Source of the DNA: Bacteriovorax sp.
Lineage (GTDB): Bacteria; Bdellovibrionota; Bacteriovoracia; Bacteriovoracales; Bacteriovoracaceae
DNA: 64,000 nucleotides
Direction of reading: 5' to 3'
Assembly (NCBI GenBank): GCA_014377485.1
Contig: JACMPM010000055.1
Span: 1 to 64,000 of the forward strand
In this document: positions 4,265 to 15,056 of the stretch, one piece after another
Layout: each line of letters starts with the position of its first letter
Numbering within the stretch: the stretch's first letter is position 1
Notes under the pieces: model-generated
What the model was told of the DNA's origin: nothing
Databases searched by the model: none
Seen by the model: only the letters and a program-made list of their open reading frames with translations
Translations under genes and position numbers: made by a program

Positions 4265-5845
4265 GTGAATGATTTTCAATTTCTGCATACTTCTTTTGAG
4301 CAGCAGGATCAGACTAAGTCTGGAACAATTCAAACCGTAAAATTACCAGATATTTATCTGGTCGAAGATGACCGCGTGCTTGGTATGACGATCAAAAAAT
4401 ACCTGGAAAAAAAATTAGCTCTAAACGTCCACTTCTTTTTAACTCCCACTGAATGCCTTCTCGAACTCGATAAAAAAATAAAATCTGAAACCGTCGTTAA
4501 TCAAACTCCCTTCTGCCTAATTACTGATATTAGTTTTGAAGTTGGTGGTTCTGATGGTTTATTGTTAATAGATCTTCTTAAAGAGCGCGGACACCATTTT
4601 GTATCGATCGTTATGACTGGTTTTGCTTCGATTGAAACTGCGATCAATGCGACTAAGAAAGGTGTTTTTCACTACCTCACAAAGCCGTTTGAATTAGAAA
4701 TCCTAAGTGAGCTTGTCACTAAAGCGTTCACTAAAAAATTAAATGTTCCCGAAAGCGCTTTCACAAGCAGTGAAGCATTTATTAATAAAACAAATACTTC
4801 TCCTAATGCTTCGAACGCTCCTCATTTATTCCAAAGCAAATTTAAAATTGAAGCTCCAGGGCCTGATGATATTTTTTGCGGAATGGTTGGACGTTCAAAA
4901 CAAATGAAGCAAGTCTTCGAGAGAATTAAAAAAGTAGCAGCATCGGATTCGACCATTTTTATTTCCGGACCTTCGGGAACTGGGAAAGAGTTGGTAGCAA
5001 ATGCTCTTCATAATCTCTCTAACAGAAAAGCTCATAATATGGTCTCTGTGAATTGCGGTGCAATTCCTTCGGAACTTTTAGAGAGTGAACTCTTTGGTCA
5101 TGAAAAAGGTGCCTTTACTGGTGCAATTTCTTCTCGCAAGGGAAGATTTGAAATGGCTCATAGAGGATCAATCTTCCTTGATGAAATTGGTGATATGCCT
5201 CTTTTATTACAAGTTAAAATTCTGCGCGTGCTTCAAAACCGCGTGATCGAGCGGGTTGGTAGTACCGAGACAACGGAAATCGATGTTCGTATTATCACTG
5301 CCACTCATAGAAATTTAGAAGAAGCCGTTCAGGAAGGAAACTTCCGCGAAGATCTTTATTACCGCTTAAATGTTATTCCTATCAAAATTCCCTCACTAAA
5401 AGAGCGGCGTGAAGATATTCCTTTAATGATTTCTTATTTCTTATCAAAATTCGTAAGTGCGGATTTAAGAAATAATATTGAATTTGATGATGAAACTCTC
5501 GAGCTGCTTATTTCTTATGATTGGCCCGGAAATGTTCGCGAACTAGAAAATCTCATTGAACGTTTAGTTATCTTAAAAGGCGGAAGCTTAATTAAAGTTG
5601 CCGACCTTCCCGCAAAATTCTTAAAAGCCTCACCCCAAAATCTTGAATCATATAAGAGCTTAATTAATCTTCCAGACGCAGGTGTGGATTTAAAGCAGTT
5701 ATTATCTGATATTGAAGATTCACTTATCAATCAGGCGTTAGAAGTGACAGGGGGGAATAAGAATCAAGCTTCTAAACTTCTTTCTATGAACCGCACCACT
5801 TTGATTGAGAAAATGAAGAAGAAAGGTTTTTTGCAGTTGAATTAA
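4265..5845 (+). CDS. NtrC-family sigma-54-dependent response regulator
   Basis: 526 residues; GTG start with AAGGA 6-10 bases upstream. Order: receiver domain (about 28-155; acidic pocket VEDD, phosphoacceptor Asp in LITDIS, Thr in VMTGF, Lys in LTKPF), linker, AAA+ domain (about 205-440; Walker A GPSGTGKE, the sigma-54 contact loop GAFTGA, Walker B IFLDEIGDM, arginine region FREDLYYRL), and a Fis-type helix-turn-helix (GNKNQASKLLSMNRTTLIEKM) at the C-terminus. It should activate sigma-54 RNA polymerase when phosphorylated. No sensor kinase is adjacent, so it is an orphan here. It retains every catalytic element that the FlbD-like protein at 14061 has lost. Confidence 0.93.
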   Translation: MNDFQFLHTSFEQQDQTKSGTIQTVKLPDIYLVEDDRVLGMTIKKYLEKKLALNVHFFLTPTECLLELDKKIKSETVVNQTPFCLITDISFEVGGSDGLLLIDLLKERGHHFVSIVMTGFASIETAINATKKGVFHYLTKPFELEILSELVTKAFTKKLNVPESAFTSSEAFINKTNTSPNASNAPHLFQSKFKIEAPGPDDIFCGMVGRSKQMKQVFERIKKVAASDSTIFISGPSGTGKELVANALHNLSNRKAHNMVSVNCGAIPSELLESELFGHEKGAFTGAISSRKGRFEMAHRGSIFLDEIGDMPLLLQVKILRVLQNRVIERVGSTETTEIDVRIITATHRNLEEAVQEGNFREDLYYRLNVIPIKIPSLKERREDIPLMISYFLSKFVSADLRNNIEFDDETLELLISYDWPGNVRELENLIERLVILKGGSLIKVADLPAKFLKASPQNLESYKSLINLPDAGVDLKQLLSDIEDSLINQALEVTGGNKNQASKLLSMNRTTLIEKMKKKGFLQLN

Positions 5846-10947: not shown

Positions 10948-11195
10948 AAACTCGTCTAAAATAGTTTGGTTTTAGGCCATCATTCGTTAAGCGTTTATCT
11001 TTATTAGAATAGCGTTCTAAATTGTTGTAAACAGAGTAAATTATCCACATGTCATATTAATGACAAGAAATATTTGCCGCTCGGAAAAATATTCCTTTAA
11101 AAAATTTCAAAACAGAGTAAACTTAGTCCTGAGTCAGAAGTGCATTCAGGATGAATGAAACTTTATTTAACAAGGCTCCCATAAGGACAAATTTG

Positions 11196-14033
11196 ATGCG
11201 AACAGGATGTTTCGTGACAATGTGCCCAGTAAAAAAAATCTTCAAATTTTTGACGTTTTTTTTCCTTTCATTAATCCTTTTGGAAAATATTTCCTTTGCT
11301 CAATCTATTATGGATCAAGAGAAGGCATCAACCTACCTACGTTGGAACTTCTTTACCGGTCGCGATCAACTTCAATTCAATAAAAAAGGTAATAAGGTTG
11401 TTATAAAGACTCTTAATAATGATCTTTACAAGAATCTTAAAGAAGAGCTCGCTTCTTTAAAGATAGATCAGTCTTATATCAAAGGTATTAACTATAAAGA
11501 GTCTGATACTGAAGCCAACTCGGCCAGCGCATTGGCAATCGAAATAGAATTAAAAAATGATAACGTTGAAATGTTTAGTTTTTATCGTGAAAGAGACAAA
11601 AAATATGTAGTCGATTTTTGGATGGATGGCGACACTGTCTCTCTTAATAAAGCGGCCATTAAAAAACCGATAGAAGAAGACCAGGTTGTAGACGTCACAT
11701 CAAAGCCTTTGCCAATCGTTCCGGTTATTACTAAAGCTCCAAAGACTAAGGTAAAAAAGAATCAGGCGAATAAACCTGCATCAAAAGAAGATTTAGTCTC
11801 GATCGTTAAAGAAGATAAAATACTATCTAGCTTTATAGTTGATCCAAATAAAGTCGTTGTAAAGTCAGACAAAGAGATTCTTGCTGAAGAAGTTGAATCA
11901 AAAAAACCATATAGAGACTTCCGTTACGGAGCTACTTTTATTTGGGATTATGATCCAATAGCTCCTGCATATAAAGAAGTTGTTAATTTAAAAACTAAAA
12001 TCCCAGAAATCTTTTATCCAATTGCCAATCGTTCATTCAAGAAAAGCGAGCAGGAAGCTCATCTGCAACTAACCATTAATCTTTATAGAAAGAAAAAATG
12101 GGGATTGATGTATAAATCAATCAAATTATTCCAACAAAAATACGGAATGGAAAAAGAATGGGAACTTGTTGAGTTTATCAAAGCCAATGCTATTTTAAGA
12201 GAAAATATTGAGACTCCAAATCCAGAACTCTTTAAGAATGCTTTTTCAATTCTAAGCACTCTTTCTGAAAAAAGTGAGAACTACGAACTTAAAAAAGCGA
12301 TCTACAAATACCTACTGACTTTTTATATGGCAAAAGGGGAGCATTTAAAAACTCTTCAATTATCAAAGAACTATTACGCTGGTACTCGCGATAATTTTGA
12401 CTTTGAAGAATCGGCCATTCCAGCAGAAGCAATGTTGAATTCTTTAGCAAAACTTGGACAAATAGAAAAAATTCAAGAGTTGTCGCAAGAGAAGTCTATG
12501 AAAAAGATTCTGCCAGCTCAATTAATCTTATCGTATCAAACATTTAGTTACCTTCGTTCTGGAGATCTCACAAGCCTGATTGCTCTTTATGAAAAAAATA
12601 AAGCTTCATTGGCTAAACCAATTGATCCGGTTATCATGTACAACACGGCCGAAGCTTACTTCAGAGTAGGTCGCTATAATGAATCAATGGCCCTTTATGA
12701 AGATTTTGTAAAAAATTATTCTCATGAATTCGTAGCTTCCAACGCCAGCCTTAGAATTGCACTTTGCTCAGATCTAATGGATCGTAACTATCAGGACACA
12801 TTAGAACTTTATAAGAGAGCAATTGATCAATCTGTTGATAGTAATGTCAGTTATGAAGCCCGCATCCGTTATGTGGCGTTTAGAGGCGTGAGAAAGATAG
12901 CTCTTGATGACCGCGACCTGGAAATTAGAATTTTTCTGGAACAAGACAAGAATTTAAAAACAATTCCAGATAAAAACCTTTCAAAACTATTGCAACAAGT
13001 AAGACTTCGTTCCTTGATTGTGGATGGAAAATACAAAGAAGCTCTGGCTTATTTATCACTTCTCCCGATGGTGACAATGCCTAAGATCGATGCTCGCGTT
13101 TTTGACGGCGACGGTGCAGAAATTATTTACGGAATCATTTCTGATTTCTATAAAAAATCAGAGTACTCACAAGTTATTAAGGCTTGGCAAACTTACAAAG
13201 ACAAATATGTTGATAAAGTGGCACAGGATCCATTTATTAACTTCGTCGTAGGAAGCAGCTATGTGAAGCTTGGCCTCTATAAAGGCTTTGACGAGGTCTA
13301 TGCAAGCTTTGAAAAGTTAAAAGATACTCCGAATAGAACATTCCCAATTTGGATCGCTCGCGGCAGTTTCCAGAAGGCCAGTGATCTTCTCAGTGAATTG
13401 GTTTTAATCAAAGATATCAAGCTACAAAACTGGGACTTAGTTCAGAAGAATATCGCAGTTTTCGGAAAAAGAATGACTAACTATAATAAGACTAATTACT
13501 ATAGAGGATTGGTTGCTTTTAACCAAAAGAACTATCCGGAAGCTGTCACACAATTTGAGAATTTTTTCTCTAAACAAGACCAAAGAATAATATATGATCC
13601 TTCAGACGTTGCGGATATGATCCGGGCCTATACTGACTCCATCTATGAATTAGGTCAGACTGATAAATTCCTGAAAGTAAGTGAAGCAATCTTAAATGAC
13701 ACCAATAGCTTCGGCACGGATAATGCTTATATACAGAACGTGCGGGAAAGAATTGCCTACCTTGGTATCGAAATAACCGCCGGATTTGGTAAGAAAGAGA
13801 ACTACATGTTATTTGAGAAAAAGATTACTGATTTTAAAAAAGCTAATCCTAGATCGATTTACACTGGACGAGTGAATTATCTTTTAGGACAGGCAATGAT
13901 CATTAATCAGAAAGTGAAGGAAGGAAGAGATGTTTTTACAAGTTTGATGAACGATAAGAATACTTCGGATTACATCAAAGAACTTGCAAAGAGTGAACTG
14001 AGTTTATTGAATTTGAAGGAAAAAACTTTATAA
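11196..14033 (+). CDS. Exported TPR-repeat protein at the head of the flagellar operon
   Basis: About 945 residues from the ATG at 11196, chosen because AAGGAC lies 8 bp upstream; an ATG at 11151 has its SD too close. A hydrophobic export signal (KIFKFLTFFFLSLILLENISFAQS) precedes an N-terminal beta-rich region like an AMIN domain (about 35-110), a Lys-rich linker and a long series of TPR-like helical pairs (for example MYNTAEAYFRVGRYNESMAL and INFVVGSSYVKLGLYKGFDE). It stands 27 bp before the FlbD-like gene and probably opens the operon. A periplasmic scaffold for flagellar or envelope assembly fits, but no exact function is known to me. Confidence 0.8.
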   Translation: MRTGCFVTMCPVKKIFKFLTFFFLSLILLENISFAQSIMDQEKASTYLRWNFFTGRDQLQFNKKGNKVVIKTLNNDLYKNLKEELASLKIDQSYIKGINYKESDTEANSASALAIEIELKNDNVEMFSFYRERDKKYVVDFWMDGDTVSLNKAAIKKPIEEDQVVDVTSKPLPIVPVITKAPKTKVKKNQANKPASKEDLVSIVKEDKILSSFIVDPNKVVVKSDKEILAEEVESKKPYRDFRYGATFIWDYDPIAPAYKEVVNLKTKIPEIFYPIANRSFKKSEQEAHLQLTINLYRKKKWGLMYKSIKLFQQKYGMEKEWELVEFIKANAILRENIETPNPELFKNAFSILSTLSEKSENYELKKAIYKYLLTFYMAKGEHLKTLQLSKNYYAGTRDNFDFEESAIPAEAMLNSLAKLGQIEKIQELSQEKSMKKILPAQLILSYQTFSYLRSGDLTSLIALYEKNKASLAKPIDPVIMYNTAEAYFRVGRYNESMALYEDFVKNYSHEFVASNASLRIALCSDLMDRNYQDTLELYKRAIDQSVDSNVSYEARIRYVAFRGVRKIALDDRDLEIRIFLEQDKNLKTIPDKNLSKLLQQVRLRSLIVDGKYKEALAYLSLLPMVTMPKIDARVFDGDGAEIIYGIISDFYKKSEYSQVIKAWQTYKDKYVDKVAQDPFINFVVGSSYVKLGLYKGFDEVYASFEKLKDTPNRTFPIWIARGSFQKASDLLSELVLIKDIKLQNWDLVQKNIAVFGKRMTNYNKTNYYRGLVAFNQKNYPEAVTQFENFFSKQDQRIIYDPSDVADMIRAYTDSIYELGQTDKFLKVSEAILNDTNSFGTDNAYIQNVRERIAYLGIEITAGFGKKENYMLFEKKITDFKKANPRSIYTGRVNYLLGQAMIINQKVKEGRDVFTSLMNDKNTSDYIKELAKSELSLLNLKEKTL

Positions 14034-14060
14034 ATTAGTCTCAGGATGGAGGCGATTCGT

Positions 14061-15014
14061 ATGACAGGAGGTCAGATGGAAGCAGTGATTAGAGTAGAAC
14101 TTTTTGGAACTGATGCAAGAGTTGAGAAAGCTCTTCTACAAGCGAGAAACTTATCTGTTAGTAAAGCCTCGGTATTAGTTGTTGGTGAAAACGGGGTAGG
14201 TAAAAGAACTCTAGGTCGTTACATCCATGAAAATTCAGGAAGAGCTAGCCAGCCTTTTGAATTAGTAGATTGCTCACTTCCAGCTCAGGATGTTGAGAAC
14301 AGAATTCTAGGTCATAGAGACAATGCAACAGGAAGATTCAACAAAGGAATCCTTGAAGCAGCTAATAAGGGGACAGTGGTATTTGCTAATATCGATTGTC
14401 TTGATGAAGAATTCCAAAAAAGACTCCATAAAATTATTAACGAACTTGAAGATTACGATATCGACGTTCGCTTAGTTGCTACAACAACTAAAAATCTATC
14501 TAAACTTGTTGGTGCAGGAAGATTCTATCGCGGATTATTTTCAATCTTCGCAAATAACGCTGTAACTATTCCTGCGTTAAGAGAAAGACAAGAAGATCTT
14601 CAAAGATTAGCCCGTCACTTTATGAATGAAGCAACTGACGCTTCTGAAATGTCGAGTGAGATCGATTCAATCGCAATGAATAGAATTACTTCTCATTACT
14701 GGGCAAATAATATTCATGAATTAAAGCAAGTGATTTCAAGTTCAGTGAATAACAATTCATCTTTATTAGATGAAAGCGCTTACGAAGTTAGCGATAAAAA
14801 ATCAGTAAAATTCATGAGTGATGATGACTCTGAAGGTGTGAGACTTATGTCGTTGAAAGATGCTGAAAAACTTCTTATCAAAAAAGCACTTATTCACACG
14901 ACTGAAAATAGAACTCAAGCTGCAAAAATTCTTGGTGTTTCTATTAGAACTCTTAGAAACAAAATCAATGAATACAGAAATGATGGATCGTCTTATTTTG
15001 TTAATTTGAGATAA
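14061..15014 (+). CDS. Degenerate FlbD-like AAA+ regulator lacking the sigma-54 loop
   Basis: About 317 residues from the ATG at 14061 (GGAGG 8 bp upstream; starts at 14046 and 14076 are also possible). No receiver domain. A sigma-54-activator AAA+ fold is recognisable: Walker A GENGVGKR, then GHRDNATGRF where canonical proteins have GHEKGAFTGA...GRF, so the GAFTGA loop is deleted. Walker B reads VVFANID instead of IFLDEIG, so both acidic residues are gone, and the second arginine of FRxDLYYRL is Ile. The C-terminal Fis-like helix-turn-helix (ENRTQAAKILGVSIRTLRNKINEYR) is intact and FlbD-like. It likely binds flagellar promoters without itself driving open-complex formation, perhaps as a repressor or a partner of another activator. 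Confidence 0.85.
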   Translation: MTGGQMEAVIRVELFGTDARVEKALLQARNLSVSKASVLVVGENGVGKRTLGRYIHENSGRASQPFELVDCSLPAQDVENRILGHRDNATGRFNKGILEAANKGTVVFANIDCLDEEFQKRLHKIINELEDYDIDVRLVATTTKNLSKLVGAGRFYRGLFSIFANNAVTIPALRERQEDLQRLARHFMNEATDASEMSSEIDSIAMNRITSHYWANNIHELKQVISSSVNNNSSLLDESAYEVSDKKSVKFMSDDDSEGVRLMSLKDAEKLLIKKALIHTTENRTQAAKILGVSIRTLRNKINEYRNDGSSYFVNLR

Positions 15015-15056
15015 CCGTTAGGTCAATTGCAACCTAAGTTGCAATTGACCTAACGG
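15015..15056. other. 19-bp perfect inverted repeat between flbD-like gene and flgB
   Basis: 15015-15033 and 15038-15056 are perfect reverse complements with a 4-nt CTAA loop. No T-run follows on either side, so it is not a typical intrinsic terminator. It starts right after the stop codon and ends 22 bp before the flgB ATG. Confidence 0.9.

Follow-up and report, generated by a model that had tools for sequence, protein, structure and literature searches.

A degenerate FlbD-type regulator retained in the main flagellar operon of Bacteriovoracaceae

The window analyzed here, a stretch of 64,000 nucleotides from a Bacteriovorax sp. contig (JACMPM010000055.1), carries a main flagellar operon in which a TPR-repeat gene (11151–14033, + strand, likely start 11220) is followed by a regulatory gene, flgB (15079), flgC, fliE, fliF, and further genes to flgE. 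All features described below lie on the + strand. We use REG as the name for the product of the regulatory gene, a degenerate FlbD-type bEBP encoded at 14046–15014, which is second in the operon, between the TPR gene and flgB, as a sequence-only reading of this DNA had placed it. The longer open reading frame begins at 14046, and the likely true start is the ATG at 14076, which gives a protein of 312 amino acids (14076–15014), has AGGAGG just 5′ of it (14067–14072), and encodes a methionine shared by most orthologues in the alignment. Some distance upstream, at 4265–5845, lies an intact NtrC-family activator with a receiver domain and a FleQ-like HTH. The gap between REG and flgB contains a perfect 19-bp inverted repeat with a 4-nt loop (15015–15056). 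Its arm has no other exact copy in the genome, and the repeat survives in part in the sister species but not in the other relatives checked. Since the hairpin occurs only here and, in part, in the sister species, we set it aside as a component of any general mechanism.

Both sequence and fold homology place REG in the bEBP AAA-HTH family. The Pfam search returned Sigma54_activat, AAA lid, and HTH_8 domains and no receiver domain, with a Sigma54_activat score of 80 bits for REG versus 246 bits for the canonical 4265 protein. The AlphaFold model is a confident bEBP-type AAA fold (mean pLDDT 84), and its best PDB matches include NtrC1, PspF, ZraR, FleQ, and FlrC. Among the NCBIfam matches listed, the best was FlbD (NF050807) at 158 bits, which is under the cut-off of 750, so REG does not have FlbD equivalog status.

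Alignment with the activator encoded at 4265, our reference for motif calls, revealed losses throughout the AAA domain. The sequence-only reading had described a deleted sigma-54 contact loop, a Walker B Asp-Glu changed to Ala-Asn, and the loss of one key arginine; the first two observations held, and the third understated the loss, which extends to both arginine fingers and to the arginine of sensor II. The L1 region of the 4265 protein, GHEKGAFTGAISSRKGRFE, corresponds to GHRDNATGRFNKGILE in REG, where GAFTGA is gone and the remnant RDNATGRF (14316–14339) stands in its former place, and L2, the second sigma-54-contact loop, is 8 residues shorter in REG. In the Walker B region IFLDEIG has become VVFANID, with Ala-Asn at 14385–14390 and Asn at the Glu position across the whole family alignment. 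The arginine-finger region FREDLYYRL reads FYRGLFSIF in REG, the two finger positions (14526–14546) now being Tyr and Ile, and an invariant arginine one position on (R152) might be a partial substitute for the first finger. At sensor II, GNVRELE has become NNIHELK, with His in place of Arg (14715–14717). REG retains Walker A and the Fis-type HTH, as the earlier reading had also noted. Walker A reads GENGVGK (14184–14204), in agreement with the pattern GExGxGK expected of a functional sigma-54 activator, and its G, E, G, G, and K are the same in all 32 orthologues aligned; positions 14841–15011 encode the HTH and the C-terminal tail. Apart from Walker A, REG is, judged by its residues, without any catalytic or sigma-54-contact element.

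The residues that remain in the active site suggest that REG may bind nucleotide without hydrolyzing it. In PspF, the glutamate switch consists of the Walker B Glu and a switch Asn (PMC4132715). The REG counterpart of this pair is an Asn at the Walker B Glu site and an Asp at the site where the 4265 protein has the switch Asn, next to an invariant P-loop, and the Asn-to-Asp change is found in 49 of 50 distinct orthologues from the window's family, Bacteriovoracaceae (f1; other families of the phylum are labeled f6, f12, and f20).

These losses are fixed within f1, and the gene is under selection. The closest REG orthologues come from Bacteriovorax sp. and other Bacteriovoracaceae, and an orthologue with an intact frame was present in 55 of the 56 f1 genomes searched, the exception being G012, an assembly that is 87% complete. 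GAFTGA, the Asp and Glu of Walker B, both arginine fingers, and the arginine of sensor II were absent from all distinct f1 orthologues in the motif table (50/50), and none of 13 additional distinct f1 sequences had GAFTGA. Across the family, the HTH and C-terminal tail hardly vary. Between near relatives, dN/dS in the AAA part is 0.02–0.06, so REG is under purifying selection and no pseudogene; it is maintained yet, on the evidence of its motifs, is no bEBP motor. The proposal that REG is a predicted non-enzymatic flagellar regulator is thus well supported by three features: only Walker A is left, the loss is fixed in f1, and the HTH is near-invariant.

Comparison with other families indicates that this state is derived. 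In those families, flgB-flgC-fliE-fliF-fliG is immediately preceded by the gene for a bEBP without a receiver domain, which itself follows a gene of ~930 amino acids, as in the window. These syntenic orthologues are mostly intact outside f1, with LLDE in 24 of 30 and G[AS]FTGA in 24 of 30. REG and the intact orthologues form one clade in the tree (support 76), inside which the contig-edge sequence L135 also falls; f1 and its sister group are united with support 100, f1 on a long stem branch (1.21) followed by short branches. REG therefore shares both clade and position upstream of flgB with intact FlbD-type flagellar regulators. Because the syntenic copies elsewhere are mostly intact and the clade is single with a long f1 stem, we interpret the intact motor as ancestral and the dead REG as derived. 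The sequence-only reading had named orthologues with intact motifs as grounds for rejecting it, and such orthologues exist outside f1; they represent the ancestral state and are no refutation for f1. The gap before flgB in f20 was considered as the site of a second activator copy and proved to be inserted DNA without such a gene.

Loss of the motor has recurred elsewhere in Bdellovibrionota. Five f12 sequences (L137, L138, L352, L353, and L377) have lost GAFTGA, L2, and the Walker B Asp, and four of these (L137, L138, L352, and L353) still have the arginine fingers. As f12 is placed elsewhere in the clade, its loss is independent of that in f1. In f6, probably Bdellovibrionaceae (the Bdellovibrio family), the copy upstream of flgB has a more extensive deletion, spanning L1 and L2, in G079, G112, G120, G151, and G153 and lacks most of the AAA domain in G039 (L372), and no copy was found upstream of flgB in G122 and G157. 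The deletions in f12 and f6 differ from each other, and the HTH is spared in every dead copy present in either family. Other sequences show partial decay of L1 (GAFAGT in L132 and L133, GAFVGA in L122, GAFAGA in L145); these four have partly lost GAFTGA or Walker B, still have the sigma-54 promoter, and are possible intermediates. A larger tree that included f6 placed it with f1, both on long branches, and contained one mis-extracted outgroup row, so this tree does not distinguish a common from a separate origin of the f1 and f6 losses. The deletions differ between the two families, which points to separate endpoints.

The promoter of the operon has also changed. The search for the -24/-12 site used an approximate sigma-54 matrix based on general knowledge of such promoters. 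At 28 of 30 non-f1 loci, a sigma-54 site immediately precedes the TPR gene (24 by scan and four more by position); the two exceptions are both f12, and two further f12 loci also lack it. With this approximate matrix, no site was found upstream of the TPR gene at any of 31 f1 loci. Considering the operon over its ~15 kb, as far as flgE, the sigma-54 site heads the TPR gene in 11 of 11 outside loci and is absent in f12 and f1. Despite the promoter loss in f1, rpoN is still present. In f1, a conserved block has taken the place of the sigma-54 promoter: GTCA-N6-TGAC, GGAAAAATTTTCC, and a hexamer resembling a -10 element follow one another at nearly fixed spacing. The window's copies are the FleQ-box-like GTCA-N6-TGAC palindrome GTCATATTAATGAC (11051–11064), ~73 bp upstream of a putative start site near 11130; the palindrome GGAAAAATATTCC (11083–11095), centered near -41 and conserved in f1; and a putative -10-like hexamer, TAAACT (11118–11123). 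The window's block upstream of the TPR gene gave no hit in a generic sigma-70 scan, so our label "sigma-70-type" is drawn from position and conservation. The TPR leader holds two AGGA-containing palindromes conserved in f1 (CATTCAGGATGAATG, 11143–11157; GAACAGGATGTTTC, 11199–11212), which look like candidate CsrA sites; AACAGGA occurs in 20 of 23 f1 representatives versus about 1 expected.

Death of REG and loss of the sigma-54 promoter are not strictly coupled. We abandoned a strict rule equating the two, to which f1, f12, and every intact lineage conform, because of f6, where sigma-54 sites precede the TPR gene in G079, G112, G120, G039, G122, and G157 despite a dead or undetected REG; no such site was found there in G151 and G153. 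A sigma-54 site is also present at the rod operon of G079 (TGGCACACGCCTTGCT), and at the f1 rod operon such sites are either intact, as in G015 and G033, or decayed. The rod/ring operon of the window's own genome (C76; L338) has a decayed sigma-54 promoter, TGGCACctcgcacgtTATAGT, that overlaps a -10-like TATAGT. The same genome contains 27 exact sigma-54-like sites (L156–L182) versus 6 for the reversed pattern, many of them before predicted lipoprotein or secreted-protein genes.

Since f6 keeps sigma-54 sites beside a dead or undetected REG, some other activator probably drives the sigma-54 promoter of the operon; the likeliest is a FleQ-like one such as the predicted 4265 protein. FleQ-type HTH domains carry the signature RTTLxEKM. 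The REG HTH reads SIRTLRNKINEYR and that of the 4265 protein RTTLIEKMKKKG, and REG is not of the FleQ type by this signature. The GTCA-N6-TGAC box occurs in 13 of 23 f1 representatives versus 1.2 expected and in 16 of 28 sequences outside f1 versus 2.5 expected, mostly about 70–110 bp before the sigma-54 site. It matches published FleQ boxes (GTCaNTAAAtTGAC and GTCAaAAAAtTGAC, PMC6120874; see also PMC10723142). We considered the box as a REG operator given its enrichment in both groups, but rejected it on account of its match to the FleQ box and to the FleQ-like 4265 protein; it is more likely read by the intact 4265 activator than by REG. A second candidate, TTTGCC-N-GGAAA, is shared by the operon and rod-operon promoters and was not significant in most genomes. 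The f12 family, where a search at E<=1e-90 turned up no 4265-type protein, yielded no shared motif, and neither the two-promoter shared-element test nor this f12 search identified a REG operator. We also discarded a GGAAAAATNTTCCTTT regulon in the window's own genome, where only the operon site is perfect and the 11 matches compare with 5 for the reversed pattern.

REG resembles several characterized regulators in part. Like Caulobacter FlbD, it has a Fis-type HTH and a flagellar setting, and FlbD is its best NCBIfam match; FlbD, however, has GAFTGA and activates sigma-54 promoters (PMC10274813, PMC3096577), whereas REG consists of the AAA-HTH part only, with no N-terminal domain and the activation motifs lost. 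Caulobacter NtrC, Rhodobacter capsulatus NtrC, and Vibrio VpsR also lack L1 and GAFTGA and are reported to work at sigma-70 promoters (PMC10274813). REG shares this absence, in f1 at an operon whose promoter is not of the sigma-54 type, but differs from them in having no receiver domain, in also lacking L2, Walker B, the arginine fingers, and sensor II, and in being flagellar. Caulobacter NtrC still depends on Walker A and B residues, unlike REG with its lost Walker B. Pseudomonas FleQ is a flagellar bEBP whose box is matched by the GTCA-N6-TGAC upstream of the REG operon (PMC6120874), but the REG HTH is FlbD-like and the FleQ-like protein of the window is 4265. FlrC, FleR, and FlgR share the flagellar setting and the AAA fold, FlrC structures being among the best matches; in contrast, each works with a cognate kinase as part of a two-component system and switches on sigma-54 promoters (PMC7064773). 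In the literature searched, we found no paper joining bEBPs, GAFTGA, and Bdellovibrio.

We consider it probable that REG is an FlbD-type regulator stripped of activation that keeps a DNA-binding role on flagellar operons, either in repression or timing or at sigma-70 promoters. FlbD represses class II genes (the early fliF-class operon) and activates class III (late) genes (PMC3096577). Because the HTH survives each loss and FlbD, the closest named relative, both represses and activates, we take the DNA-binding half to have been retained. The retained job would most likely be the negative or timing half of this dual role. REG would work without ATP hydrolysis, as a dimer or a nucleotide-bound oligomer on flagellar promoters, and would give feedback on its own operon among them. 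The chief alternative, possible but rather unlikely, is that REG acts positively at sigma-70-type flagellar promoters in the manner of R. capsulatus NtrC and VpsR, binding near -41 or -73 and recruiting sigma-70 polymerase, perhaps gated by ATP binding. The rigid spacing of the f1 block, in which two palindromes (near -73 and -41) precede a -10-like hexamer, the invariant P-loop, and the known GAFTGA-less bEBPs reported to act at sigma-70 promoters (PMC10274813) are consistent with this, but the -73 box better fits the 4265 protein, the generic sigma-70 scan was empty, and dead copies coexist with sigma-54 promoters in f6.

The suggestion that REG mixes as a subunit with a true activator fared less well. 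An inhibitory or tuning subunit that poisons the ring of the 4265 activator or makes it asymmetric would accord with the preserved AAA fold and with the presence of a 4265-type activator near REG in most f1 genomes sampled. However, the interface arginine fingers are lost, a dead REG persists in f12 where no close FleQ-like partner was detected, and a near-invariant HTH would be needless for such a role, making it improbable. Most doubtful of all is that REG is a decaying remnant kept only through its operon position; many catalytic residues are lost, and in some f6 genomes the copy is shorter still or was not found, but the low dN/dS, the near-invariant HTH, and the frames preserved across f1 speak against this reading in f1.

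Returning to the favored reading of a DNA-binding FlbD-type regulator, the activating half would have been dispensable several times, with the DNA-binding, probably repressive or timing, half kept. We tentatively suggest, as a possibility that may well not hold, that catalytic death of this activator has occurred repeatedly in Bdellovibrionota as a step ahead of a switch of the main flagellar operon from a sigma-54 to a sigma-70-type promoter, a switch that in Bacteriovoracia then took place. The dead protein would have become a nucleotide-gated DNA switch, its Asn/Glu pair changed to Asp/Asn beside the invariant P-loop. The loss of L2, the second finger, and sensor II, the recurrence across the phylum, and the promoter change all go beyond the sequence-only reading.

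Bacterial regulators without GAFTGA were already known, and what is of interest here is that the loss is recurrent and linked, if not in every case, to a change of promoter type. Annotating REG-like genes as sigma-54 activators would be wrong. Copies of this regulator form a natural series, from intact to partly degraded, to dead with the sigma-54 promoter kept, to dead with the promoter replaced. This series shows an ATP-driven activator becoming a plain DNA-binding regulator and an operon leaving sigma-54 control, which bears on flagellar control in predatory bacteria.
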